From an uncultured Cycloclasticus sp. (GTDB lineage: Bacteria; Pseudomonadota; Gammaproteobacteria; Methylococcales; Cycloclasticaceae): a DNA stretch of 64,000 bases. Below the pieces are notes generated by a model. It did no database searches. It was given only the letters and a program-made list of their open reading frames with translations, and was not told where the DNA came from. A program made the translations under genes and the position numbers. The stretch lies in NCBI GenBank assembly GCA_913060865.1, contig CAJXTU010000008.1, positions 1-64,000 of the forward strand, in the 5' to 3' direction. This document shows positions 4,478 through 44,688 of this stretch, piece by piece (within the stretch, counting starts at the first letter, position 1; every line of letters begins with the position of its first letter).

Positions 4478-6004
4478 CTAGTCCACTATATAGTTATTAA
4501 GCTGAGATTCTGATTCAGCCATAAAAGATAGAATTTTTGCTTCAGCCACCTTGATATCTTCATGCTGCCCAACTGCAATGGTGTAACGTACCAAAGCACC
4601 ATCGGTACGATTTTTAAATACCGAATCGACAAATAAATACCATTTATTAATATATTCATTTGCAATTATGCGCCCATGGCCTTGAAACCAGTAATAAACC
4701 AATTGTCGCTGATTACCTTTTTTAATCAATACACGATTAACCGGATGATTATTTGCTTCAGTACGTTCAAACTCTGCAATTTCCCAGCCCCCGCCAGGAA
4801 TACAAACTCTTGGTGAATGTGGTGAAACACCTTTCCGTTGAGATTGATAATAAGCTACATAAAAATTAACGAATGTTCCTTCATCATTATGGTAATTAGC
4901 AAGCAAATAATCAGTCATACCAAGCTTTTCAATAACTGGGGCATCAAGCTTTTCATGCTTACCCACCCAGTCCCCCAGTTGTAGAGGGTAATTCACAAAT
5001 GATCGATGTTCAGGAAATTTTTCTGTACGTTGATCCAAGAACTGAGCCACAACACCTGACCCTATTAAGAATAAAATAGCCACAATCAGTGGTTTTGAAC
5101 TAAGTTGTTGAACTGACTTATTTTGTTCGGCAGTTGGTAAAGGAGTATCAACCACAGCAAACACAGCAGCTACGCTCCCACCTTTATTCGTTAACTTTTC
5201 TAACACCCAAATTAAAATAAATAACAACACTGCACAGGCCATAAAAATAATCCAGCCTTCAAAGTCGTGTAAAAAGCCCTCCGCCATAGAAATGCCCCAG
5301 TTATCCACCAGTACACCAATAGCCCCTATACGGAAGCTGTTCATTAATATGGTTATAGGAATCGTTGCTAAGAAAACTAAGGCTCGTTTCCAAAATGATG
5401 CTTGATAAAAATAGGCTGCAATAAAGCCCAAGCTCATTAAGGGGAACAAATACCTTAAACCACTACATGCTTCAACCACCTGTAGCTGATACACACCTAA
5501 GTCGATAACATTACCTTCTAGAAACACAGGGATTTGGCATAGGCGAATAAAACTAACCCCTAGCGAAGAAGAAATTAACTGCAACTTAGCCGTTAACAAC
5601 ACCTCAATGACATAAGGCAAAGGAATAGCAAACAACAAGAGAAGAATCGGTGTAACTGTATACCGCGTACCTTTACCAATAGTCACTAGTGAGATACCAA
5701 TTAAAGCCAATACAAAAGCGTATTGGATTAATAAATATAGAGCGCTAACTTCGCCAATTAAAAATACAATAGAGGCAATAACAATTAACCATACACCTGA
5801 CCATTGTGGAGCAGTTACGGACGATAAAATAAGCCCTTTCTTCTCCCAAAGAATATATAAGGTGACTAATGGAATTAAAAAGCCATGACTATACTCTTCT
5901 TGACTCTCCCAACGAAAAAAGGCCTCTGACAAACCGTTCCAATAAGCCCATATAGCCGCGCACAATGCCAGCAAGAACAAACCCGTATGTTTTCTAGTTA
6001 CCAA
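4478..6004 (-). CDS. xrtD: Exosortase fused to EpsI domain (XrtA/XrtD type)
   Basis: The 508-aa protein has an N-terminal multi-pass exosortase domain (about residues 5-275, roughly eight helices) and a C-terminal EpsI domain after one further helix (about 305-500). The three residues expected in exosortases are present: Cys180 (EACSGLRY), Arg225 (NSFRIGAIG) and His246 (FLHDFEGW). Exosortases act as membrane transpeptidases on C-terminal sorting signals. The two candidate substrates here end in PIPAAL-type signals, which fit the VPLPA class handled by XrtD. XrtA also occurs as an EpsI fusion, so the letter is less certain than the function. Confidence 0.85.
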   Translation of the reverse strand: MVTRKHTGLFLLALCAAIWAYWNGLSEAFFRWESQEEYSHGFLIPLVTLYILWEKKGLILSSVTAPQWSGVWLIVIASIVFLIGEVSALYLLIQYAFVLALIGISLVTIGKGTRYTVTPILLLLFAIPLPYVIEVLLTAKLQLISSSLGVSFIRLCQIPVFLEGNVIDLGVYQLQVVEACSGLRYLFPLMSLGFIAAYFYQASFWKRALVFLATIPITILMNSFRIGAIGVLVDNWGISMAEGFLHDFEGWIIFMACAVLLFILIWVLEKLTNKGGSVAAVFAVVDTPLPTAEQNKSVQQLSSKPLIVAILFLIGSGVVAQFLDQRTEKFPEHRSFVNYPLQLGDWVGKHEKLDAPVIEKLGMTDYLLANYHNDEGTFVNFYVAYYQSQRKGVSPHSPRVCIPGGGWEIAEFERTEANNHPVNRVLIKKGNQRQLVYYWFQGHGRIIANEYINKWYLFVDSVFKNRTDGALVRYTIAVGQHEDIKVAEAKILSFMAESESQLNNYIVD

Positions 6005-6036: not shown

Positions 6037-7158
6037 TTAACGCTTAACCTTAAAGCGCTGCCGTACATTATTAAGTACGAGCAAGGTACTGATTCGCTTT
6101 GGCACTTTAGTGAGTATTAGTTCCCTACCTTGTTTTGCCAAACGTGCCTGAAACAGCATTAAAGTGGCAATAAATGCTGCATCAATATAACTTAACTTAA
6201 AGCAATCTATTGTCACGCGTCCTTTTTCTTCACTAAGTATAGATGAAAAAACTTGTTTTACCGACTCCAAGGTTGAAGCTTTAAAACTCCCGTTTAAAAA
6301 GACCACTCCGTCAGCTTTTTGTGACGGACTTATTACGCATGGTTGCTTGTAACATACTGACCGTTTAAGTAAACGATCATAAATTGCCAAAGGAAAAATA
6401 TAAATTAACAACATTTTAATAAACATTAACCCGTCGTAAAAATACCGTTTCCACAAACTAGGTTCTTGCTTAATACGCCATAACCATTCAAGACCAAACC
6501 TTTGCCAACACTCTGGGGCACGCTGTATATCTCCTGCTATAAAATTAATAACAGCGCCTAAGTGGCTAATAACCGGTGCCTTCAAGTACTTTCGGTTTTT
6601 TTGAATCCAAGCCTGTCCTTTCTTAGCACCTAAAGCCACCACAATAAAATCTGGTTTCGCTGTGTTTATCGCATGCAAAATATCCCTACCACTCATTTGC
6701 TCAATAGACACAAACCCAGGGTCACAAAAACCGCAGCTCAGCATACCCACACTGGTTTCATTTAATTGCTTATGCGCTCGTTCGGCTACGCCTTGTTGGC
6801 CGCCAAAAAAATAAACCCGTATTTTCTTATTTCGTGAACGACAAGATAGCTCATCAAACAACGTAGACCCCGCCACTCGTTCCTTGATAGGCACACCGAG
6901 CAACTTCGCCACCCAAACCAATGGCATCCCATCGGTTACACTTAGGTTACTATCAACAACAGAATTAAAAAATGCCGTATCCGATTGAGCTGCTATAGCA
7001 AAGTTAAGGTTTGGGGTAGAAAGAAAGCAATGAGTGTTTTGTTCTATTGCCTCTTCAATTAAGGTAACTGAACGATTTAAATCAACAACATCAAATGGTA
7101 AGCCTAGAACTGCCCATGTATCTCTACTTTTTAACATGTTTATATTAGGCCCATTCAA
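6037..7158 (-). CDS. WecG/TagA/CpsF glycosyltransferase fused to a STAS-like domain
   Basis: Residues about 15-250 are a WecG/TagA/CpsF (GT26) transferase: TDGMP with the presumed catalytic Asp76, RVAGS at 94-98, FFGG at 117-120 and the VALGAKKGQ segment. Members transfer a (often N-acetylmannosaminyl) sugar from a UDP donor to a lipid-linked acceptor at the membrane. After a hydrophobic segment, residues about 280-373 read as a STAS-type fold (FLNGSFKAST, then TIDCFKLSYIDAAFIATLML), a module usually used for regulation or nucleotide sensing. The TTG start gives a 4-bp TTGA overlap with the upstream acyltransferase; an ATG seven codons downstream (7137) is the alternative. Confidence 0.82.
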   Translation of the reverse strand: MNGPNINMLKSRDTWAVLGLPFDVVDLNRSVTLIEEAIEQNTHCFLSTPNLNFAIAAQSDTAFFNSVVDSNLSVTDGMPLVWVAKLLGVPIKERVAGSTLFDELSCRSRNKKIRVYFFGGQQGVAERAHKQLNETSVGMLSCGFCDPGFVSIEQMSGRDILHAINTAKPDFIVVALGAKKGQAWIQKNRKYLKAPVISHLGAVINFIAGDIQRAPECWQRFGLEWLWRIKQEPSLWKRYFYDGLMFIKMLLIYIFPLAIYDRLLKRSVCYKQPCVISPSQKADGVVFLNGSFKASTLESVKQVFSSILSEEKGRVTIDCFKLSYIDAAFIATLMLFQARLAKQGRELILTKVPKRISTLLVLNNVRQRFKVKR

Positions 7159-8159
7159 GTCTTATTTTGGTGAACACTATGTTTAGGCATAGAAAATAAA
7201 AAGTTGAACCGCATTCTCTTAACCGCTTCAGCAAACAAAAACGAGATAAAAACCCCAATCAAGGTACCCAATATTAAATGGAAAACACTGTTTTCAATAT
7301 TAAAGCAATATTGCATAAAAATTCTAAAGCCACTCCCAAAAATCACATGAACCAAATATATCTCAAGCGAACAACGTCCTAGTAACCCCAATAAATGAAA
7401 ACGCTGATCAAGAAGTTTAGAAAGCAGTATCACCATACCAACACCAACAAAAGCCATCATCAACTTTGCCAAATCTCCGGTGTAAAATTGGTTATGAAAG
7501 CAAAATTGAGATATGACAAACACAAGCAAGCTCGCTAATAGCCAACCATAACTCACCTTAAACTCATTAGCCTTAAAATGGGAAAACAACATACCCGCAC
7601 AAAAATAAATACCAAAGTTTATAGCGGCATTAGCAACAGACCAACCAATACTCAAGTCAGCTTTAAAAATATAAAGCAAAAGAGACAAAACAAATAGAGC
7701 CATAACATTTCGAAGCAAACTATAGGCAAGAGCATAAAAAATAAAAACAACAAATAAGGCATACAGAAACCAGAACTGATCCTGGGGTAACCACAACAGG
7801 CTTAATACATCACTAATTGTCGTCTTATAATTAGTGATATTTTGTAATGAGTATGCAAGCCCACCTTGAATAAGTGACCAAAGAATATAAGGGTATACGA
7901 TGGTACCTAACTTGCTACTAACTAACCCTTTTACACCTCTTTTATTTAACGAATTGAGAAAAAACAAGCCTGATATAAAAAAAAACAAAGGCATATGGAA
8001 TGAATAAATGACAGCATCAACAAGCCTAAAAAGCGTCTCATCTTCAGTTATTCCCGCATTAAAAACACCTCTAGCAACATGCCCGTAAACCACCAGAATA
8101 ATTCCGATGCCTTTAGCGTAATTCACCCATTCATATTGTGTCGAACTGGACGTTTTCAT
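7155..8159 (-). CDS. Acyltransferase 3 family membrane protein (OafA-like)
   Basis: This 334-aa protein has about ten transmembrane helices and the acyltransferase-3 features: a WVNYAKGIGIILVVYGH start with His27, and the SFHMPLFFFISGLFF segment. Such enzymes acetylate or otherwise acylate sugars of exported polysaccharides from the periplasmic side. It overlaps the start of the downstream glycosyltransferase gene by 4 bp. The 164 bp upstream hold no gene I can see. The exact acyl group and sugar cannot be told from sequence. Confidence 0.88.
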   Translation of the reverse strand: MKTSSSTQYEWVNYAKGIGIILVVYGHVARGVFNAGITEDETLFRLVDAVIYSFHMPLFFFISGLFFLNSLNKRGVKGLVSSKLGTIVYPYILWSLIQGGLAYSLQNITNYKTTISDVLSLLWLPQDQFWFLYALFVVFIFYALAYSLLRNVMALFVLSLLLYIFKADLSIGWSVANAAINFGIYFCAGMLFSHFKANEFKVSYGWLLASLLVFVISQFCFHNQFYTGDLAKLMMAFVGVGMVILLSKLLDQRFHLLGLLGRCSLEIYLVHVIFGSGFRIFMQYCFNIENSVFHLILGTLIGVFISFLFAEAVKRMRFNFLFSMPKHSVHQNKT

Positions 8160-8323: not shown

Positions 8324-9556
8324 CTATACAATATGATTGATAACGCGATTAAACATATCCTTCAACTTACTTGCATTGTGTTCAAGTGAGAAATCCCGTT
8401 TTACTTTAGAGGCAGCACATTCAATCATCTGATTTTTTAACACAGGTGAGTTTATTAACATTAAAATTGTTTCGGCTAGTTGGTCCTCACTATCTGGGGA
8501 AACCAACAAGCCCGTTTCTTTATGCACAACCAACTCTGGAATACCCGACAATTTTGTAGAAACAACCGGCACCCCCGATAACATGGCTTCCATTAATACT
8601 ACAGGTATCCCATCTACATCACCCTGTTCATCTTGCTTGCAAGGCAACACAAAGGCATCTAACGATTTAATAAATGAAGCTACTTCAGCATGGGCAATTG
8701 CACCCATAAAAGTTATATCTTGCGGACTTAAATCAAGGCTTAGCGCCAAAGCCTGCAATTGTTGAAACAACGGGCCATCACCCGCAAGTTGCAGTTCAAT
8801 TGTCTCACCTTGCGCTTTTAAAATAGCCACGGCTTTAATTAAAGTATCGAAGCCTTTTTTCTCGACCAGTCTGCCAATAGCACCTATTCTAGTTTTCTTA
8901 TGCTCTAAGACAGCCGTTCTTTTAGAAAAAAGATTAGGCTCTACACCACAGCGTACAATGCACATTTTGCTCGCATCAACGCCTTTATCTTCAAGGTAAT
9001 GTTTATTAAATTCTGAAATAGTGGCAAAAAAAGCCGAACGTTCAACTTTTTCGTTCAGTAGCCATCCACGTTCATATATATCGTTAGCATGTGCCGTAAC
9101 ACTAAAAGGAACTGCTGATAAAGAAGACGCATACATTCCAATATCAGTCGGTATATGTGCAAAGTGAACATGCAAATGCTCACAACCATTCGCTTGTAAC
9201 TGGCGCGCTAAACTGGCAGCAAAAAAGAAACGATAAACCAACCCTAAACCAATACGACTAAACAGCCCAACTTGCCACATATCACGCCCCACCATCATCA
9301 GCGTTTTTAAATAACATACTGGACTTTTCAGCAAGCAAAGCAAATTATCTTTTAATACATTAAGTTTAGACTGCGCATAGAGATAAAACGTACGTTTCGC
9401 TAAAGCCTCAACCCTTGGTTCATTAACCTTTGAACTTGGAGTGTGCACCGAAAATGGAACCACTTGCACACCTAAAGCTTCCAGCTGCAAAATTTCGTTG
9501 TAAACAAAAGTTGCCGATAACGCAGGTATCTCTGGTGCTAAATAAGCAATTTTCAT
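8324..9556 (-). CDS. Family 4 glycosyltransferase
   Basis: The 410-aa protein is a GT-B fold glycosyltransferase of the GT4 type. The N-terminal half includes LHVHFAHIPTDIG and VTAHANDIY segments similar to colanic-acid transferases such as WcaL. The C-terminal half has GRLVEKKGFDTLIKA and the donor-binding E-x7-E region around GIPVVLMEAMLSGVPVVS. It probably adds one sugar to the lipid-linked repeat unit on the cytoplasmic face. It is followed 164 bp later by the acyltransferase gene. Confidence 0.88.
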   Translation of the reverse strand: MKIAYLAPEIPALSATFVYNEILQLEALGVQVVPFSVHTPSSKVNEPRVEALAKRTFYLYAQSKLNVLKDNLLCLLKSPVCYLKTLMMVGRDMWQVGLFSRIGLGLVYRFFFAASLARQLQANGCEHLHVHFAHIPTDIGMYASSLSAVPFSVTAHANDIYERGWLLNEKVERSAFFATISEFNKHYLEDKGVDASKMCIVRCGVEPNLFSKRTAVLEHKKTRIGAIGRLVEKKGFDTLIKAVAILKAQGETIELQLAGDGPLFQQLQALALSLDLSPQDITFMGAIAHAEVASFIKSLDAFVLPCKQDEQGDVDGIPVVLMEAMLSGVPVVSTKLSGIPELVVHKETGLLVSPDSEDQLAETILMLINSPVLKNQMIECAASKVKRDFSLEHNASKLKDMFNRVINHIV

Positions 9557-9586: not shown

Positions 9587-10753
9587 CTAGTCATTACCAA
9601 ATAAATCACGGGTATATACTTTATCTGAAACATCCCGAATATCATCAGTCAGTCGATTTGCAATAATGACATCAGCTTCGTGTTTAAACGTATTTAAATC
9701 CGCCACAACATTAGAATTAAAGAACTTACTTTCTTGTATAGCCGGTTCGTAAACAATAACTTCTATACCCTTTGCTTTAATACGTTTCATTACTCCCTGT
9801 ACCGCAGAAGAACGAAAGTTATCAGACCCACTCTTCATAACCAACCGATAAACCCCAACAACTTTTGGCTTAAGCTTAATAATGCTATCTGCGATAAAAT
9901 CTTTTCGCGTACTATTTGCATCAACAATTGCAGCAATCAAGCTATTAGGTACATCTTTATAATTTGCTCTTAACTGTTTAGTATCCTTAGGTAAACAATA
10001 CCCACCATAACCAAACGACGGATTATTATAATGACTCCCAATACGCGAATCTAAGCCAACACCCTCAATAATCTGCCTACTATTTAAACCATGTATTTCA
10101 GCATAACTATCGAGCTCATTAAAATAGGCTACACGCATCGCTAAGTAAGTATTAGAAAACAACTTAACCGCCTCAGCTTCTGTTGAATTGGTATGTAATA
10201 CAGGAATATCTTTTTTGACGGCCCCCTTAACTAACAAGTTTGCAAACTGTCTGGCTCGATCAGATGTTTCACCTACAATAATTCTCGATGGATGCAAATT
10301 ATCATACAGCGCCTTGCCTTCCCTTAAGAACTCAGGCGAAAAAATAATATTATTAGTCGATAATTTCTCGTTTAGTTTTTTAGTGTATCCAACTGGTACT
10401 GTAGACTTGATCACCATCAGAGCTTGCGGGTTGATTGAGAGCACGTCAGAAACCACTAACTCAACTGAACGAGTATTAAAGGAATTAGTATCAGGATCAT
10501 AATCAGTAGGCGTTGCAATAATCACAAAGTCTGCACCCTTATATGCAAACTCTTTATCTAAGGAAGCCGTAAAATCAAGTTTTCTATTCTGCAAAAAATC
10601 TTCAATTTCCCTATCAACAATTGGTGATTTTTTTTTATTAAGCTCATCAACTCTTTCCTTAATAATGTCTAACGCCACCACTTCATTATGTTGTGCCAGT
10701 AGCATGGCATTTGACAGCCCTACATACCCTAAACCTGCGACTGCAATTTTCAT
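9587..10753 (-). CDS. ugd: UDP-glucose 6-dehydrogenase family nucleotide-sugar dehydrogenase
   Basis: The 388-aa protein carries the Rossmann GxGxxG start ([12 protein letters not shown]), the catalytic-Cys signature [12 protein letters not shown] near residue 255 and the usual three-domain length. It oxidises a UDP-hexose to the UDP-uronic acid with two NAD+. UDP-glucose is the likely substrate because the protein resembles the shorter bacterial Ugd enzymes. Its presence predicts a uronic acid in the exopolysaccharide. It sits between two glycosyltransferase genes in the same operon. Confidence 0.88.
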
Positions 10754-10787: not shown

Positions 10788-11702
10788 CTAAGACTTCCAT
10801 ACCTTAGCTTGTTGTTCATTCAACTCAAGTGTGGCTTGTTTCTTGCCTTTCAACAAACACCGCCATTGATAAGCCCGAATGAAGTCAACCAGCTCAGCAT
10901 CCTCAAAACGAGGTTTACGCTGTAACATACTCTTAATGTAACCCCACAACATGGCAAAGCCGCCTATTATATAGGGAGGATGTAACATTCTAAAAACTGA
11001 GGAAGCCGTCATATAAAGCAGGCTCGTTCCCATAAAGTATTGTCCAAACCCATGACGCATACGTCCGGTAAATATTCCTTGTTGGCTAGAACCCATAGGC
11101 CGTAAATGAATAAAATTCAAGTCAGGCTCATCCCAGCTAACTGCAATCCAACCCAGTTGGCGGCATTTATGACAATCAATCCCATCCCACATCACTTGCC
11201 GAACAAAACCACCAATTTCTTCAAAGCATTCACGACGATAAAACTTTGTCATTCCAACAGACATCTCATCACCACATTTTTCGCTAATTAACGTGCCTGT
11301 TTTTTTATCTTCAAAATATGCTTTACCACTGCAGGTTCCTATTCGAGGGTTCTCCTCCATACGTTGAATTAATACTTCAAAATAACGCACGGGCAGCTCT
11401 AAATCCAAATCAAACTTACAGACATAGTCAAACTGCTTCACATCAACCTGATCATAACCGTGATAAAAAGCTTCAATAACACCCGGCCCAACACTACGGT
11501 GACCTCGATTTTCTCGAGTAATAATTTGGATAAATGGATAACGTGCTGCGTAATCTCGTAGGATTTCAGGCGTTTGATCGGTTGAACCATCATCAACAAT
11601 CACCCATAGTGCAGGCAATACACTCTGCTTCACCACGCTCTCAAGCGTATCAAGCATAAAATCTGCCTCATTACGGCAGGGTGATACTAATAAATACGAC
11701 AT
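10788..11702 (-). CDS. Family 2 glycosyltransferase
   Basis: The 304-aa protein is a GT-A fold GT2 enzyme. It opens with a PCRNEADFML and WVIVDDGSTDQTPE nucleotide-binding segment, has an FDLDLELP divalent-metal region, and an MWDGIDCHKCRQLGW region in place of the usual ED..R acceptor region. There are no clear multi-pass membrane segments beyond one hydrophobic stretch near residues 230-255. It likely adds one sugar of the repeat unit. Confidence 0.85.
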   Translation of the reverse strand: MSYLLVSPCRNEADFMLDTLESVVKQSVLPALWVIVDDGSTDQTPEILRDYAARYPFIQIITRENRGHRSVGPGVIEAFYHGYDQVDVKQFDYVCKFDLDLELPVRYFEVLIQRMEENPRIGTCSGKAYFEDKKTGTLISEKCGDEMSVGMTKFYRRECFEEIGGFVRQVMWDGIDCHKCRQLGWIAVSWDEPDLNFIHLRPMGSSQQGIFTGRMRHGFGQYFMGTSLLYMTASSVFRMLHPPYIIGGFAMLWGYIKSMLQRKPRFEDAELVDFIRAYQWRCLLKGKKQATLELNEQQAKVWKS

Positions 11703-11752: not shown

Positions 11753-13021
11753 TTACAAGCGCCCATCAACACCAACCGAAGGAAACAAGTACTTAATATC
11801 GTATACAACATGATTATCTTTACCTAACGCTTTCACACCCTCAATACCCAGCTCTTTAAATTGCTCATGTGAGACTGCAATAATCATTGCATCATACTGC
11901 CCAGCGGCTGGTTGATCTATTAAATTCAAATTATAAACAGCCTGTGCCTCTTGCTTATCCACCCAAGGATCAAATACATCAACTTTTGCGTTATAGGTAT
12001 TGGTTAGCTCTTCAATCATTCCCACAACACGAGTATTTCTTAAATCAGGGCAGTTTTCTTTAAACGTTAAGCCTAACATTAAAATTTTTGCATCAACGAT
12101 ATTAAGCTTTTTACTGGCCATCAGCTTAACCACCTCGCTCACCACAAAGTGCCCCATATTCTCGTTAATACGACGGCCTGCAGAAACAAGTTGAGGGTGA
12201 TAACCCAATGTTTCGGCTTTATGTACAAGATAGTATGGGTCAACACCAATACAGTGCCCCCCCACTAACCCCGGCCTAAAGGGTAAAAAGTTCCATTTAG
12301 TGCCCGCAGCTTCCAGCACCTCTTCAGTATCAATACCTACACGGTTAAAAATTAACGCCAGCTCATTCACCAAGGCAATATTAATATCACGCTGGGTGTT
12401 TTCAATCACCTTAGCGGCTTCGGCTACTTTAATGCTGCTCGCTTTATGTGTTCCGGCTGTAATAATGGATTGGTACAACTCATCCACCATAGTGGCAATA
12501 GCCGGTGTTGAACCCGATGTTACTTTAAGTATATTGGTTAAGCGGCGTGTTTTATCACCCGGGTTGATTCGTTCGGGGCTATAACCACAGTAAAAATCAA
12601 CATTAAAGCGCAAGCCCGACACCTGCTCAAGAATAGGCACACACACTTCTTCGGTTGCCCCCGGATAAACCGTAGACTCATAGATAACAATATCGCCTTT
12701 TTTTAAATGTTGCGCCACTAAATGAGTCGCTGATATAACCGGCGAAAGATCAGGGTTCTTACTACTATCAATAGGCGTTGGTACCGTTACAATATAAATA
12801 TTGCACATCGCCAGCTGGGAAGGTTCATCTGTAAAACTTAATAAATGCGCCTCTGCCATCTCTTCCGTACTTGTTTCTAAGGTAGCATCTTTGCCAACCT
12901 GTAAGTCGCTTATACGCGTGGTGTTGATGTCGTAACCTATCGTAGAAAACTGCTTGCCGAATTCAACCGCTAAGGGTAAACCAACATATCCCAAACCTAT
13001 TATTGCTATTTTAAAGTTCAT
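11753..13021 (-). CDS. tviB: Nucleotide-sugar dehydrogenase, TviB/WbpA-like
   Basis: The 422-aa protein has [15 protein letters not shown] at the N-terminus and the catalytic [15 protein letters not shown] motif near residue 260. This is typical of UDP-N-acetylhexosamine 6-dehydrogenases (TviB, WbpA, WbpO) rather than of UDP-glucose dehydrogenase. It would give a UDP-N-acetyl-hexosaminuronic acid. With the Ugd-like enzyme 1 kb downstream, the polymer probably contains two kinds of uronic acid. The symbol is given by resemblance to the Vi-antigen enzyme. Confidence 0.83.
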
Positions 13022-13044: not shown

Positions 13045-14061
13045 TTACTTATATTCGATTATGTGCGCATCATCGCCTAGTAACCTATTTACCGCAAATT
13101 TCATTATCCCTACAAACTGAGGAAATTTTGCTATTACGGTCGATACAGCGTAGCTTATTGTCACTGTTTTTGGCTTATTCAAGCTTTTAAATTTTAACGT
13201 TAATCTACATATCTGTAATGGATATAGCAGCAGTAAAAAGAATGCTCCTAAATGAAGTGTCGACAAAAAAACCACGAGCACAGGTAAAACTCCGCCCCAT
13301 AACAAAATACTGACCACCTCTTTCACTTTAAAACTCTCCGAAGACGTCCCGTGCAGAAAGCTTAATGACGCATACGCATAACCAGCTCTTTTAGCTCTAT
13401 TCCACCACTGTAAAAATTTAGTTATCGCCGCATCATGCAGCGTCATCTCTTCATCAAGCCGATAAATTTTCCACCCTTTTTCGCGCAAACGAAAACACAT
13501 TTCTGGCTCTTCGCCGGCAATTAAATCATCTCGATACCCGTTAACCTGCCTAAAGGCATCCGTTCTAATCAGCGCGTCGCCACCACATGCCGCAGCATCC
13601 CCTGCCGGCGTATTCCATTCAATGTCACATAGCTGATTGTATATAGATCTTTCAGGAAACCTTTCACGTCGGCGACCACAAACCACCGCATACTCGTTAT
13701 TTTCATCTAAAAAGGATTCGGCTTTATGAAGCCAGTCTTTTTGAATCTCGCAATCCCCATCTATAAATTGAATAACCTTTATATCGGGATATTTTTGAAG
13801 TAAGTAATTAGCTCCTTCGTTACGCGCACGTGCGGCGGTGAAAGGAATGGTCAAATCTAATTGTATAACTGTCACTCCGAGTGATTTTGCCTTATCAACA
13901 CTTCCATCTGTTGAGCCTGAGTCGACATAAACGATCGTAGAAAGCGAACTTAGTAAAGACTTAAGGCATCTTACCAACCTACTACCTTCATTTCGACCAA
14001 TTACGACCCCTGCACAAGATTCGCTCTTAGTATTAGAAATGAGTTCATTCATATAATTCAC
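13045..14061 (-). CDS. Family 2 glycosyltransferase with C-terminal membrane segments
   Basis: The 338-aa protein has a GT2 domain (residues about 18-240: [34 protein letters not shown], and [14 protein letters not shown]) followed by two hydrophobic helices (about 250-300). It probably acts on a lipid-linked acceptor at the inner membrane. The GTG start shares one base with the stop codon of the NRPS gene (TAGTG), so the two are translationally coupled; an ATG three codons later (14052) is possible. The coupling ties this transferase to the NRPS. Confidence 0.85.
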
Positions 14062-17000
14062 TAATGAACGTCCGTCTTCATATATGAAGCCAGGTGATTT
14101 GCAAGTTTTGAAACGTTTGGAGCTTTAATAATACTTAGGTGGTCACCCGATATTTCATAACAATCCAACGCTCCTTTAACGAAGCAATTCCAACCATAAT
14201 CAGGTAAAAACGACACCCCCTTACCCCATGAACTATGGTCTGTTGCTTTCATCAAAATAACTTGCCCATCATACAATCCATCTGATGCTTCATACGTTTC
14301 CATACATTTAATAAATGCTTGCTCACGGAAATGAGACATATTTATTGGATTTTGGCTTTCTGATGAATGAAGACATTTTTGAATAAATAACTGAAATGGA
14401 TTTAAAATCCTTTTCATTAACTTCTTGCCATTATTTAATATACTTCGTTTAATACCTGCCGGTAGAATAGTATCCAGTAAAATAACAAGAGCCACTTCTT
14501 TATTATTTGCTTTCAATAATCTGGCTGTTTCCAACGCTAACAACCCACCAAAAGATATCCCAGCCAATTGATACGGCCCTTCAGGCTGTTGTCGACATAT
14601 CGCATCGTAATAAGATAAGGCAAGCCGTTCGACCGAAATATCAGACTTTTTACCTGCCATTACATCCTCTAAAAAGGCTTGCTCCTCAGCCACATAAATA
14701 CCGTATACAGGCTGCGTAGAACCCAAACTATTTGCCAGCTCTTGATATATGTTTATCCCGCATAAACAAAATAGCGGAACACCAGCTCCTTTTGATTGCA
14801 GCGGAACAATACTTGATGCTCTTTTTTCAACATTGTCATTTTGCGCATCAACCAGCTGTTTAATCGTCGGGAAACTAAACACACTCCCCAAATCAAACTT
14901 TATACCCGTAGCACGTTCCATTTTCTGGATTAATAACACGGTCATCAACGAATCCCCTCCCAAATCAAAAAAATTATCTTCTATTCCAATTTGAGACAAC
15001 TTAAGAACTTCCTGCCAAACCGAGACAAGGCTTCGTTCAAAATCATTTCTAGGTTCAACGTATTCTGTGCTATCTGAAATTATTAAAGAGAGTGCTGGGT
15101 CCGGCAATGCTTTACGATCAACTTTCCCATTTGACGTTAAGGGTAACGTTTTTAACATGATGAATTTAGATGGGATCATGTAATCAGGCAATTTTGTTTT
15201 TAAGTAACTACGCAGCTCACTACCATCAATACCGGATTCCTTCGACGCCAATAAATAAGCCACTAGAGCTTGCTGGCCAAACTCGTCAGGCCAAGTTGTA
15301 ACAACACTTTGAGCAACAGAGTCATGATTACTCAAAACTGTTTCCACCTCGCCTGTTTCTATACGAAAGCCTCTAACCTTTACTTGAAAATCTATCCGGC
15401 CAATATACTCAAGGTTCATATCCAAGGTATATCTGACTAAATCTCCAGTCTTATACATCTTTGCATTATCAACAGTTGAAAATGGGTTCGGCTGGAATTG
15501 TGCTTTTGTTAAATCAGCGTTTCCATAATACCCTTGAGCTACACCATCCCCTGCAATATATAACTCACCAGAAACACCTACTGGTACAGGTTGTAAAAAC
15601 TCATTCAAAACAAACATTTGTGTACCAGCAATAGGTTTACCAATCGATATGGATCTCTCTTTTTTTGCAACCCGATGAACTGACGACCAAATTGTAGTCT
15701 CAGTGGGACCATACATATTCCAAAGACTCGAACACTTAGGCACCAACTGCTGAGCTAATTCGTAAGACAGCGCCTCCCCACCACACAATACCTTCAGGTT
15801 TTGATCCCCCTTCCAACCGCTTGAAATTAATAATCGATACGTCGCCGGGGTTGCCTGCAACACAGATATATCATTTCTTAATAGCTCTATTAGCGCTTCG
15901 CCATTGATTGTTGCATCATAAGGTGCAATTCTGACAGTGGCCCCTAGAATTAAAGGCAAAAACAATTCTAACGCTGCAATATCAAATGAAATAGTCGTCA
16001 CTGACAATATGACATCTTGTGACTTCATGCCTGGTTGAGCAGACATCGCCTGTAAAAATGTTGTTAATCCATGATGACGAACTTCAACACCTTTTGGCCT
16101 TCCAGTAGATCCCGATGTAAAAATAACATAGGCTAAATCACTTCCTTTTACATCAGGATATTTCAATATTTCTTTAGCCGGACTTTCTGGCTTACTGTCT
16201 AAACAAATTACTTGTGTACGGCTGTCAACAGAAATCTTTTTCCTTAAATTCGTTTCAGTGATCAACACAAGTGGATTTGCATCTTCAAGAATAATAGAAA
16301 TACGATCTGATGGTTGCTTTGGGTCTATTGGCACATAAGCACCTCCAGCTTGCATAATCGCCAGTAAACAGACAACCATTCGAGGTGAGCGATCAATGCA
16401 AACACCAACCAGTACTCCTGGCCTTACGCCTTGTTGGCATAACTGCTGAGCCAAGCCTTCAACTTGCTTGGCCAACGACGCATAGGAAGTATTCTCAGCA
16501 CCAAACTGAACAGCAATTTTATCTGGAGTTTGCTCGACTTGTTGTTTAAAAAGTTCAACAACTGTTGGCACTTTCTCATCTCGAAAATAAGCGCTGTCTT
16601 CTTTCGGAAAAAGAAGAGCGCTTTCTTCTGGGGTTAAAAGTTCAATCGTTGCTATTTCTTGAGTACGATCAGTTAAAAACTGATCTAATAAAATAGAGAA
16701 GTGTTTAATCGCCCTTTCACGAAGAATCGAGGTCGTCCAAACACCCAAATTAAAATCAAAACTCACTTCATACTGTTGTTTGTCTGAAGATTGCTGAATT
16801 TGTATCGCCAAACTTTCTCGACCCGACCACCCTGCGCCAGAAACATCTGACTCTAATTCATCTAAAAGATTAAGCGGTGTGGTGAGTTCATAGTCGGCAT
16901 TCAAACCTGCAAATGTATCAAGTGGTGAGGCTAGAATATTAAGAACAACCTCATAGCCTGCTTTTTTTGCAGAAACGAAATGGTCTCTATGGTCTCGGAC

Positions 17001-17966
17001 AGCTTCAATTTCCTTACGAACCTTACCCACTATCGTTTCAAAGGTATCGCCATCTTCAAGAGTTACTCGATTAGGACAAACCTCCATAAATAGCCCTAGA
17101 GTATCAGAATAGTCGCTCGTCCGATTTAATAGCGGCAGGCCAATCGACAAATCCTTATTCAGGGTGACGCGATTTAAAAAAGCGAATAAAACAGTGGTAA
17201 ACACAACCGACATTGAAATAGAAGTCGACACATCATTAATCAATGAAACTGTTTTGCCATCCAGTTTGTATGTTAAACGTGTTGTCTGAGCAGTTTTGTA
17301 ATACGAAGGCTGGTTATAGAACTGAACTGGCTCTACTGCTTGCTCATAACGCGATTGCCAAAATTTATTATTATTTTCAAAAAATAATGTTTCTTTCTGC
17401 TTGTATTTTTCAACCAGAAAATCAGGGTATTTATCAGGACATTGACTACTTAATTCACTAGCCCCTTCAGTCCCAAGTTCCTGCTGATAGTAGCTTGATA
17501 GCAACTCATGTACTTTTTTACATGAAAACCCATCCGTAATTGAATGATGCTGATTTAAATAAAAAACAAACAATTCATTTGAAAATTTAACTATCTTTGC
17601 TCTATAAAGATTCTCACCGTAAGCAAACCGACATTCGCACCAACTCTGAAAATCCCTCGTTTTTTCATAATCTGAAATTAAACCGCCATCCATCTCCAAT
17701 ATTTCTGGTGCTTGTGATTTTTCAAAACAACCAAAAACTCGTCTGCCCGTAGTCTTATCTACTTCAACGAAAGAAGAAAAAACGAAATACTGATCACAAA
17801 GCCTATTAAATGCTTTCAAAAATGCATCCGTATCCACACTTCCATGCATAACAAAGCGCGTTAAAACATTATTAATCGGAAGCAATGGATGCAAGCTATC
17901 ATCTATCCAAAGTGCTTCTTGCCTGTCGGTAAGCGGGTATATCTTTGTTGAATTTATTCTATTCAC
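14061..17966 (-). CDS. Single-module non-ribosomal peptide synthetase (C-A-PCP-TE)
   Basis: The 1301-aa protein has four intact domains. A condensation domain (about 1-435) has the HHxxxDG motif at 140-146. An adenylation domain (about 465-955) has TSGSTGRPKG at 618-627, YGPTET at 752-757 and Lys948. A carrier domain has DLGGDS with Ser1006. A thioesterase (about 1060-1290) has GISFGG with Ser1138 and a late GDH. Aligning to GrsA, the ten pocket residues read D662 I663 L666 A705 L727 G729 M751 I759 W760 K948, close to the known glycine code DILQLGLIWK (differing at two sites). It should load and condense one small amino acid, inferred to be glycine, onto an acceptor supplied in trans. Lying among glycosyltransferases, with a 1-bp overlap to one, it probably makes an amino-acyl decoration of the polysaccharide. 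The GTG start has GGAG 10 nt upstream; an upstream ATG frame is closed by a stop. Confidence 0.92.
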   Translation of the reverse strand: MNRINSTKIYPLTDRQEALWIDDSLHPLLPINNVLTRFVMHGSVDTDAFLKAFNRLCDQYFVFSSFVEVDKTTGRRVFGCFEKSQAPEILEMDGGLISDYEKTRDFQSWCECRFAYGENLYRAKIVKFSNELFVFYLNQHHSITDGFSCKKVHELLSSYYQQELGTEGASELSSQCPDKYPDFLVEKYKQKETLFFENNNKFWQSRYEQAVEPVQFYNQPSYYKTAQTTRLTYKLDGKTVSLINDVSTSISMSVVFTTVLFAFLNRVTLNKDLSIGLPLLNRTSDYSDTLGLFMEVCPNRVTLEDGDTFETIVGKVRKEIEAVRDHRDHFVSAKKAGYEVVLNILASPLDTFAGLNADYELTTPLNLLDELESDVSGAGWSGRESLAIQIQQSSDKQQYEVSFDFNLGVWTTSILRERAIKHFSILLDQFLTDRTQEIATIELLTPEESALLFPKEDSAYFRDEKVPTVVELFKQQVEQTPDKIAVQFGAENTSYASLAKQVEGLAQQLCQQGVRPGVLVGVCIDRSPRMVVCLLAIMQAGGAYVPIDPKQPSDRISIILEDANPLVLITETNLRKKISVDSRTQVICLDSKPESPAKEILKYPDVKGSDLAYVIFTSGSTGRPKGVEVRHHGLTTFLQAMSAQPGMKSQDVILSVTTISFDIAALELFLPLILGATVRIAPYDATINGEALIELLRNDISVLQATPATYRLLISSGWKGDQNLKVLCGGEALSYELAQQLVPKCSSLWNMYGPTETTIWSSVHRVAKKERSISIGKPIAGTQMFVLNEFLQPVPVGVSGELYIAGDGVAQGYYGNADLTKAQFQPNPFSTVDNAKMYKTGDLVRYTLDMNLEYIGRIDFQVKVRGFRIETGEVETVLSNHDSVAQSVVTTWPDEFGQQALVAYLLASKESGIDGSELRSYLKTKLPDYMIPSKFIMLKTLPLTSNGKVDRKALPDPALSLIISDSTEYVEPRNDFERSLVSVWQEVLKLSQIGIEDNFFDLGGDSLMTVLLIQKMERATGIKFDLGSVFSFPTIKQLVDAQNDNVEKRASSIVPLQSKGAGVPLFCLCGINIYQELANSLGSTQPVYGIYVAEEQAFLEDVMAGKKSDISVERLALSYYDAICRQQPEGPYQLAGISFGGLLALETARLLKANNKEVALVILLDTILPAGIKRSILNNGKKLMKRILNPFQLFIQKCLHSSESQNPINMSHFREQAFIKCMETYEASDGLYDGQVILMKATDHSSWGKGVSFLPDYGWNCFVKGALDCYEISGDHLSIIKAPNVSKLANHLASYMKTDVH

Positions 17967-18039: not shown

Positions 18040-18260
18040 AGTTCATTTGTTTTCAAATGATAGTTTTGCAAATTATCTCTACTCCTGTAATGACCGTCCA
18101 GAAACCATGTTGAACAGCGGATAACCTAGATAACAGCAAGGCAATAAAGCCTTTTTTGTTTGGTCCTTTGATATTGCCAAATAGACTGTAATAGCTTTCG
18201 GCTAGGATCCCAGAAATTTCCTGGAGTTTCACGTTGCCAATCAGGAACTTTAGAATCCAT
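18040..18260 (-). pseudogene. Truncated, frameshifted serine-acetyltransferase-like gene
   Basis: An ATG at 18260 overlaps the stop of the upstream acetyltransferase (TAATG). The first frame reads MDSKVPDWQRE, then FWDPSRKLLQSIWQYQR and stops after 44 codons. The second frame continues KGFIALLLSRLSAVQHGFW and TVITGVEI before a stop. These two pieces match the conserved N-terminus of serine O-acetyltransferase-like enzymes of exopolysaccharide loci (FWDPSR..LL..I..YQ and RFWSVVTGADI). The hexapeptide-repeat catalytic part is missing. One frameshift plus loss of the 3' part makes a functional product unlikely. The NRPS gene begins about 75 bp beyond the remnant. Confidence 0.7.
18043..18060. 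repeat. Small perfect inverted repeat at the pseudogene end
   Basis: TCATTTG and CAAATGA flank a TTTT loop. The 7-bp stem lies at the point where the acetyltransferase remnant loses similarity to its family, just upstream of the NRPS. It has no clear terminator T-run on the minus strand. Confidence 0.45.
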
Positions 18261-18862
18261 TATGATGTTACTTTGACACTATCATCTAATGTCTTAATAA
18301 TTTTAGCGGGCACTCCAACAGCCAGTGAAAATGGCGGAATATCCGCAACCACCACTGCATTCGCTCCGATCACACTATCATGGCCTATCGTCACATTTCC
18401 CAAAATTGCTACACCGCATCCAATATCAACTCTATCACCTATAATAGGCTTGCCATTAAGCTGGCTTTTCTTAGCAATACCAAAGGTTGTATTTTGCCGA
18501 ATAGTCACATCATCACCTATTTCCCTTGGCACCAACACCATGCCTCCAAAGTGCTCTAACTTAACTCGCCGACCCACTTTAACCGTATACCCAAGACTTA
18601 TTCCAAACAACACCTCAGTCAATGGAAACAACAGCTTATATAGTATAGAAAATGGCATTCTTAAATAACGATTGTGAACTCCCATGCGCCAATTACCAAA
18701 CCTGTGTAACGTCAATACCCAAAAACCTTGAACTAACTTTCGCTCATGCGTATTGAAATCCTCCTTGATAAGCGCCCAAAGGCTCATTCCAGCAGGATTT
18801 TGATTTTTCTTTCCATCTGACAATGGTGGTAAATCAGGGTCAAACTCACCGTCTCTTTTCAT
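18260..18862 (-). CDS. Hexapeptide-repeat O-acetyltransferase (CysE-like)
   Basis: The 200-aa protein starts with a CysE/SAT-like helical part (MSLWALIKEDFNTHERK at about 24-40, then FWVLTLHRFGNWRM). It continues with a left-handed beta-helix of hexapeptide repeats (about 95-185: IGDDVTIRQNTTFG, IGDRVDIGCGVAILG, IGHDSVIGANAVVV). Such enzymes in exopolysaccharide clusters transfer acetyl from acetyl-CoA to a sugar. A serine acceptor is less likely in this setting. The stop codon overlaps the start of the broken paralog. Confidence 0.85.
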   Translation of the reverse strand: MKRDGEFDPDLPPLSDGKKNQNPAGMSLWALIKEDFNTHERKLVQGFWVLTLHRFGNWRMGVHNRYLRMPFSILYKLLFPLTEVLFGISLGYTVKVGRRVKLEHFGGMVLVPREIGDDVTIRQNTTFGIAKKSQLNGKPIIGDRVDIGCGVAILGNVTIGHDSVIGANAVVVADIPPFSLAVGVPAKIIKTLDDSVKVTS

Positions 18863-18874
18863 CCTAAATCCCGC

Positions 18875-19867
18875 TCATTTATTTTTAGCAGGCAACATGC
18901 CAACACCCTTTATAAATACACTATTCATTAAGGAGTCGTATAAAAAATGAGGTGGGTTATTGTGTGTTTTTTTCTGGATTAAGTTTCGCACAACCCAAGC
19001 AGAGTAACCCGTTAGCCACGCGATGTCTGCGAGACAAGCGCGTATAACGCCATAATTCTTTACAAAAAATCGCCGTCTTGAATCAAACCAATATGCCGGC
19101 CTCCTTTTAGCTTTAACACTGGTATCCGTAACACCCGAGCTTTGCCCTACATAATGCACTACACGACTATTCGGCTCGTACCAACATTCCCAGCCACAGC
19201 GCGCTGCTTGTAAGCAAAAATCCATTTCCTCATAATACATAAAGTACGACTCATCTAATAAACCAACCTGCCTGAAAACATCCGTACGAATTAACATACT
19301 CGCGCCCGCCACCCAGTCAGTTTTTGTGGCTTGGCTTGGTGCTTGATTAGCGTCCTGAAGATTTAATATTTTCGAAATAAACCCCCACCTAAACCCACGA
19401 TCAAGCTCTGAAAGCCATGTGTGAAATCTAAAAGACGAACCTTGCGGCGTGCCATCTAGACCCTCTAAACGACTACCAACCATACCAGCAGCCGAATGCG
19501 AATCTAAAAATGAAACCAATGAATTAATAGCACCTTTCCTAACAACCGTATCAGGATTTAACAAGTAGATATATTCTGGAGGGAACTCTCTCGCTAAAAA
19601 ATTCCGAATAGCTAGATTATTACCGTATGAAAAACCGCCATTAACCTCAGCTTGAACTACTGTCACCCATTGCGCCCAGCCTTGAGCATCGACAGCTGAC
19701 AAAAGAGTACCGTAAGAACCGTCTTGCGAGTCGTTATCAATAACTGTTACTTTGAACTCAACACTTTCACGCTCTAGTAATAAAGAATGCAAACACTCTA
19801 TCGTCAGACCTGCTGTTTTATAGTTAACAATGACAATCAGTACAGTATCTGTATGTATATCTCTCAT
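18875..19867 (-). CDS. Family 2 glycosyltransferase, rhamnosyltransferase-like
   Basis: The 330-aa protein is a GT2 of the WbbL type: VIVNYKTAGLTIECLHSL near the start, VIDNDSQDGS, YIYLLNPDTVV (metal-binding DxD replaced by NPD as in this family), GASMLIRTDVF and ESYFMYYEEMDFCLQA. Relatives transfer rhamnose or another deoxysugar from a dTDP or similar donor. It overlaps the upstream glycosyltransferase by 4 bp. No dTDP-rhamnose genes are in the window, so the donor is open. Confidence 0.85.
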   Translation of the reverse strand: MRDIHTDTVLIVIVNYKTAGLTIECLHSLLLERESVEFKVTVIDNDSQDGSYGTLLSAVDAQGWAQWVTVVQAEVNGGFSYGNNLAIRNFLAREFPPEYIYLLNPDTVVRKGAINSLVSFLDSHSAAGMVGSRLEGLDGTPQGSSFRFHTWLSELDRGFRWGFISKILNLQDANQAPSQATKTDWVAGASMLIRTDVFRQVGLLDESYFMYYEEMDFCLQAARCGWECWYEPNSRVVHYVGQSSGVTDTSVKAKRRPAYWFDSRRRFFVKNYGVIRACLADIAWLTGYSAWVVRNLIQKKTHNNPPHFLYDSLMNSVFIKGVGMLPAKNK

Positions 19868-21136: not shown

Positions 21137-21943
21137 TTATTTTATTATTCTCTTAACCACGCCCTTTATTCCCCTAATTCTAGACTTTAAACTTCTCGAT
21201 GCCTTTTCAAGCGGCATAAGAACATTATCTTTAGCCCACTCATCAGGCCTAGCTTTGAAAATGGTAGAATGCTTGTCTCCAGCCCATCCCTTAGGCTCTT
21301 CTTTCGTATAATAATACGTAGCAAATGATTTACGCATAACATCTAATGGGCAGGTTAATGGCGTTACCCCATGAAAACTAATTTCACTGGTTATAAAACC
21401 ACAAGCACGGTTAAATTTTGGCTCAAAATAACCAATGCGTTTTTTTACGTCCTTGTCCCAAAGATCTAAATACCCACCATAACCTTCTTTCCAGTCTTTA
21501 TTAAAATAAATAAGTATATTTAAGCGTCGATACGCTCGATTTTCATTATTGAAGTTGAAATCAACATGCACATCGAGATGCCCACCGGTATTAGTCTCAT
21601 GAATGCCACCTCCGACCAACTCAGCATCGGCAAACAGATTAGGGATACCCGTTATCTCAGACCACATATCAAGGTATTCTTTTGAGCAAAGAAGCTGATT
21701 CAGTTTCTGGATAGCAGGAGAGAATTTTGCCGAATCTGTAATTTGAACCTTTCTTTTTTCATTAACCGCTGAAAACTCTTTTCCAAGTTTTTGTGCTTCT
21801 TGAAAGCTAGGGAAAGATTGATAAATTTCTTCAGCAAAGTCTTCTTTTAAGAAATTATCAATACAAAAATGCGGGAAACCCTCTGATGCAAAAAAATCTT
21901 GTTTTAGTCTATCTCTATCTATCTCGTTTAAAAGGTCCATCAT
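21137..21943 (-). CDS. 2-oxoglutarate/Fe(II)-dependent oxygenase
   Basis: The 268-aa protein has the facial-triad pattern of prolyl-4-hydroxylase-like dioxygenases: HVD (His126, Asp128), a distal His191 (SFHGV), and Arg204 placed to bind 2-oxoglutarate (RKSFATYYY). Members hydroxylate proteins, amino acids or small molecules using O2 and 2-oxoglutarate. In this operon it may modify a sugar or the amino-acyl group made by the NRPS, but no substrate can be read from the sequence. The ATG overlaps the stop of the small frame upstream (ATGA). Confidence 0.82.
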   Translation of the reverse strand: MMDLLNEIDRDRLKQDFFASEGFPHFCIDNFLKEDFAEEIYQSFPSFQEAQKLGKEFSAVNEKRKVQITDSAKFSPAIQKLNQLLCSKEYLDMWSEITGIPNLFADAELVGGGIHETNTGGHLDVHVDFNFNNENRAYRRLNILIYFNKDWKEGYGGYLDLWDKDVKKRIGYFEPKFNRACGFITSEISFHGVTPLTCPLDVMRKSFATYYYTKEEPKGWAGDKHSTIFKARPDEWAKDNVLMPLEKASRSLKSRIRGIKGVVKRIIK

Positions 21944-24286: not shown

Positions 24287-25636
24287 TTATAAACCGAGGT
24301 AGTTAACAACAGAATCACCCATGTAATAACTGATAAAAAATAACGGGAAGAACTTAAATTCACTTTTCAAACACAGTAGTTTGTATTGATGCATTTTGTA
24401 AAAAATCAACGGAACCTCTACTATTGAATTCAAAGCTATCACAACCACCGCACCATATAACCCATAGATTCCATAAGCAAGTGGGACTGAAATAAATAAA
24501 AATATTGCCGACACGCCTGTTAACAACATAATGTATTTAGAGTTTCCTAAGGCCATAAAACAAACACCCGCCATAGTGATTCCTAAAAAAATAGTGGATA
24601 AGGATAAAATTTCGAGCATCCATCCTGCGTTCTGGTACCTATCATCATAGAGAAAATCGATAACTACGTGGCCTGTACTCGCTAAAATACCCACCACTAT
24701 CATGACAACTGCATCTAGATGACGACGCATTTTGTAATATACTTTTTTTAAATCTTGAGGCCTGGATCTCACTACTTCACTTAGCACCGGATAAAGAACC
24801 GAGGACATTACCTTTCTCACAATCTCTTTAAATGCCATTGCAAGAAAAAAAGCAATGGTATAAACACCCAATTCTTTAGGTGACACTAAGCCACCCAGCA
24901 ATAGGCGATCTCCTTGGCCCATTAGAAAGGTAAAGATGGACGCACCAAAAACCCACTTCCCAAAATGAAATATTTCATACAGGGCCTCTTTATCCCAGCC
25001 CCAACAACTTTTATCGCCAAGCGACCGATGATGTGACAATAGCATTTTACAAAAAGCTGAAAACACCGTGCCCACAACCAACGACCAAATATCACGTTGA
25101 TACCAAGCTAATGCAATCATGACCAGCAACCCCATCACTTGGCTTAACACCTCAATCGTCATGATTTTTTTTAACTTTAAATCACGGTTAAGAAGCGCTA
25201 GATTTATCGAGTTAAAGCCTGAAATCAAGCCGGTAAGTGACATGGCTGCTAAAATAAAGGGTAACTCAGTGTCAGAATATACAGAGCCCTCTGCAAAGAG
25301 TCCTGACCCGCCAACGTAATAAAAGCTAATACTTAATATTAACATTAGTAGAAACATCACGCTGCCACGTAATATTTGAACAGACCAGGCGGTATTTATA
25401 TAATCTCGTTCATCACTTCGTTTACTCTGAATAATATTCTGAGTAACTCCTAGATCTGAAAACATTGCCAACCCATTCAAGATAACCGAAACGACTGCCA
25501 TCAAGCCAAACATTTCCGGCACCAGCAAGCGAGTAAGAATCAAGTTCCCACCTAAACGAATAAGCTGCGAGGCAGCATGTCCACTTAATACCCAGCTGCC
25601 TGCGTGTATTGCCCGCTGCTTAAGTGTTTGGGTCAT
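24287..25636 (-). CDS. Wzx-like polysaccharide flippase
   Basis: The 449-aa membrane protein has about 12-14 helices and the polysaccharide-synthesis (MOP/RfbX) family start: GSWVLSGHAASQLIRLGG and LILTRLLVPEMFGLMAVV. It should translocate the undecaprenyl-linked repeat unit across the inner membrane. The start codon immediately follows the stop of the polymerase-like gene. The pair Wzy-Wzx shows that the polymer uses the Wzx/Wzy route rather than a synthase or ABC transporter. Confidence 0.88.
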   Translation of the reverse strand: MTQTLKQRAIHAGSWVLSGHAASQLIRLGGNLILTRLLVPEMFGLMAVVSVILNGLAMFSDLGVTQNIIQSKRSDERDYINTAWSVQILRGSVMFLLMLILSISFYYVGGSGLFAEGSVYSDTELPFILAAMSLTGLISGFNSINLALLNRDLKLKKIMTIEVLSQVMGLLVMIALAWYQRDIWSLVVGTVFSAFCKMLLSHHRSLGDKSCWGWDKEALYEIFHFGKWVFGASIFTFLMGQGDRLLLGGLVSPKELGVYTIAFFLAMAFKEIVRKVMSSVLYPVLSEVVRSRPQDLKKVYYKMRRHLDAVVMIVVGILASTGHVVIDFLYDDRYQNAGWMLEILSLSTIFLGITMAGVCFMALGNSKYIMLLTGVSAIFLFISVPLAYGIYGLYGAVVVIALNSIVEVPLIFYKMHQYKLLCLKSEFKFFPLFFISYYMGDSVVNYLGL

Positions 25637-34246: not shown

Positions 34247-34756
34247 CTAAACGGCAACCGCTGCTTTACGACGTAAGCCGAAGAAGCCTAGTAACGCTGG
34301 AGCGAATAAGAATAATGCAGCTGGAATTGGTGTTTCAACTCTAAAGTCATAACTTTGACCTTCGCCAGCTAGTACTTCAATCACATAAATGCTAGCTTCT
34401 TTAAGCATTAAATTAAAAGCAAAACTTCCTGCATTATTTGCATCTGGCCCAATAATCAAAGCACTTACAATTTCTAATCCATCTTCAAATAATTTAAAAT
34501 AAGACTTTGTGGTAAAATCATCGAAACTTCCACTGAACCAACCTCTAGTGTCTCTACCTTCAACATCCAAAGCAAAGGTCGCCGCTCCATTAGCAGCTTG
34601 AAAATAACTATCTGATGCGGCAACTAACTGCCCACTTGCAGGGTCAACAATTGACACCAAATCACCACCCGTTTGAGCCAATGTTAAGTTTAACGATGCC
34701 GCATTAACTGTTACCGCAAACAACATTCCCACAATAATAAACATTACTTTTTTCAT
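34247..34756 (-). CDS. Small secreted protein with VPLPA/PEP-CTERM sorting signal
   Basis: The 169-aa protein has a signal peptide (about 1-19, ending VNAAS) and a C-terminal TPIPAALFLFAPALLGFFG segment with an RRK tail, the same type of sorting signal as the protein at the far end of the locus. The mature body is only about 120 residues and unrecognised. SD sequence AAAGGA lies 7-8 nt before the ATG. The leader is unusual: a shared promoter motif, then a hairpin, then a riboswitch-like element, then a terminator after the gene. It is therefore a single-gene unit likely controlled by cyclic-di-GMP. Confidence 0.85.
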   Translation of the reverse strand: MKKVMFIIVGMLFAVTVNAASLNLTLAQTGGDLVSIVDPASGQLVAASDSYFQAANGAATFALDVEGRDTRGWFSGSFDDFTTKSYFKLFEDGLEIVSALIIGPDANNAGSFAFNLMLKEASIYVIEVLAGEGQSYDFRVETPIPAALFLFAPALLGFFGLRRKAAVAV

Positions 34757-44669: not shown

Positions 44670-44688
44670 GTTATAGATTGAGTCGGGT

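Follow-up and report, generated by a model that had tools for sequence, protein, structure and literature searches.

Many bacterial polysaccharides and LPS cores bear amino acids, glycine included, and we know of no enzyme to which the attachment of several such substituents has been assigned. In Vibrio cholerae, the AlmEFG system adds glycine to lipid A (PMC4790380). Our search of the open-licence literature revealed no described system in which an NRPS accompanies exosortase, O-antigen, capsule or exopolysaccharide genes, and no single-protein NRPS for the attachment of glycine to a polysaccharide. Here, we analyzed an NRPS gene in a stretch of 64,000 nucleotides from an uncultured Cycloclasticus sp. 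(contig CAJXTU010000008.1, positions 1 to 64,000; hereafter, the window) and compared its locus with such systems.

The NRPS gene and its surroundings

The NRPS gene occupies positions 14061..17966 of the minus strand and encodes 1301 amino acids with the architecture C-A-PCP-TE, as assigned from the ORF and its Pfam domains. The reading frame starts with GTG and has no internal stops, and the plus strand over the same interval carries stops throughout. A preliminary description of this DNA had given the same coordinates, without a strand, and had listed C, A, PCP and TE domains with their key residues; both points were confirmed, as all five Pfam domain matches exceeded their curated cut-offs and the motifs could be located. 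The condensation domain (aa 8-452; 16611..17945, minus strand), for which an AlphaFold model was also available, retains the intact motif HHSITDG at residues 140-146. The adenylation domain (aa 473-948; 15123..16550, minus strand) comprises AMP-binding (aa 473-814) and AMP-binding_C (aa 873-948) matches and displays SGSTGRPKG at residue 618, and the peptidyl carrier domain (PP-binding, aa 980-1040; 14847..15029, minus strand) contains GGDS with Ser1006. The type I thioesterase domain (aa 1072-1291; 14094..14753, minus strand), likewise modeled, harbors the triad Ser1138 (in GISFG), Asp1165 and His1276 (in GDH). By all sequence features tested, 14061-17966 is one intact NRPS module.

Alignment to the code positions of the A domain yielded the ten-residue specificity code DILQLGMIWK, which has been published as a code of glycine-activating domains (PMC12283262). 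The same code is present in an orthologue from another genome of the genus (G013), and an orthologue from a Methylophaga MAG (L034) differs from it by one residue (DILQMGMIWK); glycine is thus most likely the substrate, as predicted from the code. In the genome, which measures 2.43 Mb and is 99.9% complete, no gene besides the NRPS has a condensation domain, so that no upstream module would supply a peptide. One PPTase-family gene passes the ACPS cut-off, and the genome also encodes 22 ring-hydroxylating dioxygenase alpha genes, a number that, along with genome size and kinship, would suit a Cycloclasticus-like marine hydrocarbon degrader. We considered whether the NRPS might be a recent foreign insert, and its GC content gave no such signal (0.391, vs 0.389 for the locus).

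All genes assigned to the surrounding locus, from 36556 down to 200, lie on the strand of the NRPS. From 36556, an initiating sugar-phosphate transferase (Bac_transf; 35147..36556) is followed by Wza-type export, GNVR/Wzz chain-length, Wzx-type flippase (24287..25636) and candidate polymerase genes, by several GT2 and GT4 genes, among them a rhamnosyltransferase-like GT2 (18875..19867), and by a 2OG-Fe(II) oxygenase (21137..21943). An EpsC/CysE-like hexapeptide acyltransferase (18260..18862) precedes the NRPS at a distance of 293 bp. Directly downstream of the NRPS lies a GT2 glycosyltransferase with hydrophobic C-terminal segments (13045..14061), and beyond it come two nucleotide-sugar dehydrogenases, a TviB-type UDP-HexNAc 6-dehydrogenase (11753..13021) and a UDP-glucose 6-dehydrogenase (9587..10753), with a further GT2 (10788..11702) between them. 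A GT4 (8324..9556), an Acyl_transf_3 O-acyltransferase (7155..8159), a WecG/TagA glycosyltransferase fused to STAS (6037..7158), an exosortase EpsH with an EpsI (DUF3485) domain (4478..6004) and a TPR protein complete the order. The joint presence of EpsH, EpsI, Wzx, export and initiating-transferase functions in one gene set indicates that the surroundings are an exosortase-type polysaccharide locus, and the earlier statement that the NRPS is embedded in an exopolysaccharide gene set was upheld by export, Wzx, glycosyltransferase and EpsH/EpsI genes on the same strand. Around the NRPS, including the 293-bp gap, promoter-like sites were no more frequent than expected by chance, and a terminator scan of the same surroundings was uninformative (7 sites vs 4.5 expected).

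Several other proteins were observed in and around the locus. A secreted, beta-helix-like protein of 572 aa is encoded at 27210-28928; its C-terminal tail is of low complexity and contains PIDAT/PIDAEP and STYASST repeats, and L034:1-1509 is a homologue of the protein without clear similarity in the tail; an ORF with SSD repeats stands at the start of L152. Two secreted proteins (200-1030 and 34247-34756) end in PIPAALW/LF-hydrophobic-RRK, likely exosortase sorting tails. At 41844-47277, a zinc carboxypeptidase (M14) adjoins two RimK-like ATP-grasp proteins, one of which is fused to DUF1643.

Orthologues, sister loci and candidate partner genes

In 17 further genomes of the genus, we found one orthologue of the NRPS (G013, 58% identity) and a second match that was a fragment (40% identity). 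A scan of 84,980 species genomes yielded one close orthologue, that of the Methylophaga MAG (62% identity), after which the best segments of the relatives were about 30-45% identical; a plasmid search returned only relatives of less than 60% identity. Both close orthologues reside in polysaccharide loci, in agreement with the idea that the same NRPS would recur in other EPS loci. The gene order is NRPS-GT2-GT2-GT4 in G013 and Wzy-Wzx-GT2-GT4-NRPS-GT2b-GT2-CysE-Ugd-GT2-GT4-WecG-exosortase in L034, where the position of the NRPS relative to the core glycosyltransferases differs from that in the window and no close TviB is present. Three loci of the same genus (one in G009 and two in G016) are free of the NRPS and nevertheless keep GT2b, GT2, CysE and TviB; in two of the three (G009 and one G016 locus), sulfotransferases lie nearby. 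Since the core occurs both with and without it, the NRPS is an optional addition to this core, comparable to sulfotransferases and O-acyltransferases, and its distribution is that of a decoration gene which some loci carry and others lack.

The preliminary description had named a preponderance of homologues outside polysaccharide loci as evidence against its reading. Such a preponderance was found for relatives of 40% identity or less, part of which lie in polysaccharide loci and most in ordinary NRPS clusters or alone; the close clade shows none. Lone NRPSs near polysaccharide genes were also seen several times in other phyla (e.g., L037, L064, L084 and L108), and many relatives are ordinary. 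In two MAGs of uncertain placement, an NRPS lies beside a GT2b homologue, as part of a conserved trio of a GT2b homologue, a double alpha/beta hydrolase and a C-A-PCP-TE NRPS with a glycine-type code (L041:40-7094 and L086:1768-8945). Another relative with a related C domain and a TE domain 38% identical to that of the window (L035:9860-13858) is located between pheT- and pheS-like genes, as recognized by their N-terminal sequences, on the opposite strand.

We subsequently considered whether neighboring genes act as dedicated partners of the NRPS. The NRPS stop codon TAG and the GTG start of the downstream GT2 share one G (TAGTG), confirming the 1-bp overlap described previously; 9 nt further into the GT2 there is an in-frame ATG, so that the overlap depends on the start used. 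It is not conserved, as the GT2 of G013 starts approximately 21 nt past the NRPS stop and a different GT2 follows the NRPS in L034. With regard to the suggested co-occurrence of GT2 and NRPS, the GT2 also stands without the NRPS, once in G009 and twice in G016, and it is accordingly not a dedicated partner. Homologues of the other GT2, at 18875..19867, adjoin NRPSs in L034, L041 and L086 too. The co-occurrence proposed for the 2OG oxygenase was not supported. This gene was found neither in L034 nor in the sister loci that lack the NRPS, which are the loci compared here, as the G013 contig ends too early to be used; the oxygenase is therefore probably no part of the NRPS function.

Shortened NRPSs of the order and the folds of the C and TE domains

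To survey the order, 311 genomes were searched and their NRPS neighborhoods read. Eight further NRPSs were found in polysaccharide loci (L138:8137-11586, L139:260-3571, L144:9268-12561, L145:737-4192, L182:5160-9539, L184:8252-11704, L185:8183-11632 and L189:8047-11601), the weakest case being L139, which has one Wzx neighbor on a short contig. Each of the eight begins within the C-lobe of its condensation domain, with the Pfam match beginning at profile position 185-206 of 456 in the four tested, and HHxxxDG is found in none of them. In the four checked by tblastn and three-frame translation of the upstream DNA, no N-lobe was hidden by a frameshift, L139 and L145 lying close to contig ends. 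A-PCP-TE is intact in those examined, and these loci therefore point to A-PCP-TE as the working part. The A-domain codes vary: they indicate glycine in L138 and L139, L189 carries DFWNIGMVHK, which we take to be a threonine code, and the others are unassigned. Directly after the shortened NRPS in the polysaccharide locus of L144, a separate 335-aa PCP-TE protein is encoded (L144:12571-13578).

Five of the 13 C-lobe-only NRPSs lie outside polysaccharide loci, four of them with metallo-beta-lactamase-fold and DUF6875 genes alongside; in L183, L186, L187 and L188, NRPSs of this kind with the code DVKTFGN[MI]xK stand beside a divergent pair of ODP-type metallo-beta-lactamase-fold and DUF6875 genes. 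As controls, 20 ordinary NRPS neighborhoods of the order were read with the same profiles, and none contained a polysaccharide gene (8/13 vs 0/20, Fisher p ~ 1e-4; p = 0.015 when the controls were limited to the 7 whose NRPS-free flank measured 7 kb or more). These p-values are only indicative because the C-lobe-only group was defined post hoc, after inspection, and its members are related; the annotation profiles, moreover, were partly trained on these loci.

By sequence, the C domain of the window is distant from solved C domains (best match 34 bits). Its AlphaFold model (pLDDT 87) is nearest to RzmA (Z 37.2) and CDA C1 (Z 35.8), both starter C domains, and the top five fold matches are all of this type, with elongating C domains within 1.5-2 Z. 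In a tree of 60 C domains, which has several long branches and a bootstrap not fully settled, the window, L034, L035, L041, L086 and L052 form one supported group together with three members of the class. Free A-domain genes and genes that resemble acyl-CoA dehydrogenase adjoin two of these, L131 and L132; such neighbors would suggest acyl or aryl starters. In its modeled fold, the C domain of the window is nearest, by a narrow margin, to starter C domains, and it may first N-acylate the glycine. For the TE domain (model pLDDT 86), the best folds were the Pks13 TE (Z 24.2), AB3403 (Z 22.9) and the EntF TE (Z 22.8). TE domains usually hydrolyse or cyclise their substrates; the Pks13 TE passes an acyl chain to trehalose, so that transfer to a sugar by a type I TE has a precedent.

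Proposed function and comparison with known systems

We propose, with a probability of roughly one half, that the NRPS is a one-polypeptide glycyl-decoration enzyme of the surface polysaccharide in which the TE domain acts as the transferase. The PPTase, whose gene is present, would arm Ser1006 of the PCP, and the A domain, given its observed code, would adenylate glycine and load it onto the carrier. The starter-like C domain may then N-acylate the glycine from acyl-CoA or an acyl carrier, or may serve as a platform only, after which Ser1138 of the TE would take the glycyl or acyl-glycyl group and pass it to a sugar hydroxyl or, less likely, an amine. The candidate acceptor, in the cytoplasm, would be either a nucleotide sugar or one of the sugars of the lipid-linked repeat unit. 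With regard to an amino-sugar acceptor made within the locus, no DegT aminotransferase was found among the polysaccharide genes, and a strong match lies on another contig. The proposal draws on the intact module, the glycine code, the missing upstream module, the PPTase gene, the orthologues in polysaccharide loci, the optional presence on a shared core, the C-lobe-only relatives, the 0/20 controls and the fold match to the Pks13 TE. Against it stand the intact C domain of the window, superfluous if A-PCP-TE did the decorating, the position of the L035 relative among unrelated housekeeping genes, the 5 of 13 C-lobe-only NRPSs outside polysaccharide loci and the usual TE chemistry of hydrolysis or cyclisation. 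More broadly, and more tentatively, single-module NRPSs, often of the form C-lobe-A-PCP-TE, might constitute a recurring class for polysaccharide aminoacylation, in which the A-domain code sets the amino acid (Gly, Thr or others) and the TE transfers it to a sugar; the window gene would be a glycine version with a complete C domain.

The preliminary description had proposed that the NRPS makes or transfers an amino-acyl group to the polymer or its lipid-linked precursor, with the C domain using a non-peptide acceptor. In such a scheme, the C domain would move glycine from Gly-S-PCP to a hydroxyl or an amine of a sugar, in the manner of free-standing VibH or ester-forming C domains, and the TE would be an editing hydrolase. 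An HHxxxDG motif intact in both the window and L034 and a genome without an upstream PCP donor would suit this arrangement. It is nevertheless less favored, and we regard it as unlikely: the best folds are starter C domains that acylate an aminoacyl-PCP (albeit with others within 1.5-2 Z), genes of the clade lie beside acyl-CoA dehydrogenase and free A-domain genes, suggesting acyl or aryl donors, and the related NRPSs from such loci of the order keep A-PCP-TE without the catalytic C lobe. We prefer transfer by the TE because the catalytic C half is dispensable in those NRPSs and because the window C domain resembles starter C domains. The same resemblance, combined with ordinary type I TE folds, would also fit a small soluble product with no relation to the polymer, an N-acyl-glycine or a glycine ester, with the C domain acylating, the TE hydrolysing and the gene hitchhiking in a variable region. 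Polysaccharide loci are recombination hot spots, and most relatives of 40% identity or less belong to ordinary NRPS clusters or stand alone; even so, two genera have kept the NRPS within the locus, at positions that differ, its GC content is like that of the locus, and independent NRPSs occur repeatedly in polysaccharide loci of the order vs 0/20 controls, which renders a soluble product rather unlikely.

Two further readings would change the acceptor. Amino-acid uronamides are known in bacterial polysaccharides, and the UDP-glucose 6-dehydrogenase and TviB-type dehydrogenase of the locus could supply a uronic acid to which glycine is amide-linked, as in uronamide-containing O-antigens. We consider this highly improbable, given that the chemistry runs in the wrong direction (the NRPS activates the carboxyl of the amino acid, whereas a uronamide needs that of the sugar to be activated) and that L034 has the NRPS and no close TviB. 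Alternatively, a lipid or protein, such as an exosortase substrate or the lipid carrier, might be decorated instead of the polysaccharide; an exosortase and candidate sorting-tail proteins are indeed encoded in the locus, and the glycine of AlmEFG goes to lipid A (PMC4790380). Neither a hydroxy-acyl target nor a partner of the AlmG kind is apparent, however, and the genome has no MBOAT genes, so that we consider such a target very unlikely.

If glycyl decoration holds, the use of an NRPS module as a decorating enzyme would assign a substituent step of the kind that lacks an enzyme. It would also allow A-domain codes of polysaccharide loci to predict the substituent, and it would add glycan acceptors to the reaction repertoire of NRPSs. 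The NRPSs of methanotroph-type loci without the catalytic C half would offer a natural test of whether A-PCP-TE suffices. Even if the proposal is wrong, lone NRPSs in such loci would not be antibiotic clusters, a point relevant to genome-mining tools.

Among known proteins, AB3403 (Acinetobacter, PDB 4zxh) shares the C-A-PCP-TE architecture and is among the best full-length PDB relatives (492 bits), although distant in sequence; to our knowledge, it is encoded outside polysaccharide loci and has no proven product. The starter C domain of RzmA (rhizomide synthetase, PDB 7c1h/7c1l) has the closest C fold, over 415 residues at an rmsd of 3.0, but is only 16% identical to the window C domain and belongs to a multi-module lipopeptide synthetase. 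The mycobacterial Pks13 TE, the best TE fold match, differs in its 24% identity, its rmsd of 4.2, its long lipid substrate and its PKS context, and the AB3403 and EntF TEs are nearly as close, with lower rmsd. TIGR03098, the XrtA-associated acyl-CoA ligase, is an adenylating enzyme catalogued as exosortase-linked; it is a stand-alone ligase, however, and the window A domain scores 230 bits against it, far under the cut-off of 592. DltABCD, which D-alanylates teichoic acids, also employs an A domain and a carrier for polymer aminoacylation, and the window A domain reaches 295 bits with the DltA model, yet this is far under the curated cut-off (476) and the predicted amino acid is glycine, not D-alanine; a search for a Dlt-like partner gave no MBOAT (DltB, PF03062) match in the genome. 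In AlmEFG, an adenylation enzyme activates glycine, which then passes by way of a phosphopantetheine carrier to a glycoconjugate of the cell surface, as is proposed here, but this takes three proteins, with AlmG as the transferase and lipid A as the acceptor, whereas the window has one C-A-PCP-TE polypeptide in a polysaccharide locus. Because it combines A domain and carrier with C and TE domains in one polypeptide and the genome has no MBOAT, we consider the NRPS not to be a member of AlmEFG or Dlt; by analogy of function, it would work like them.
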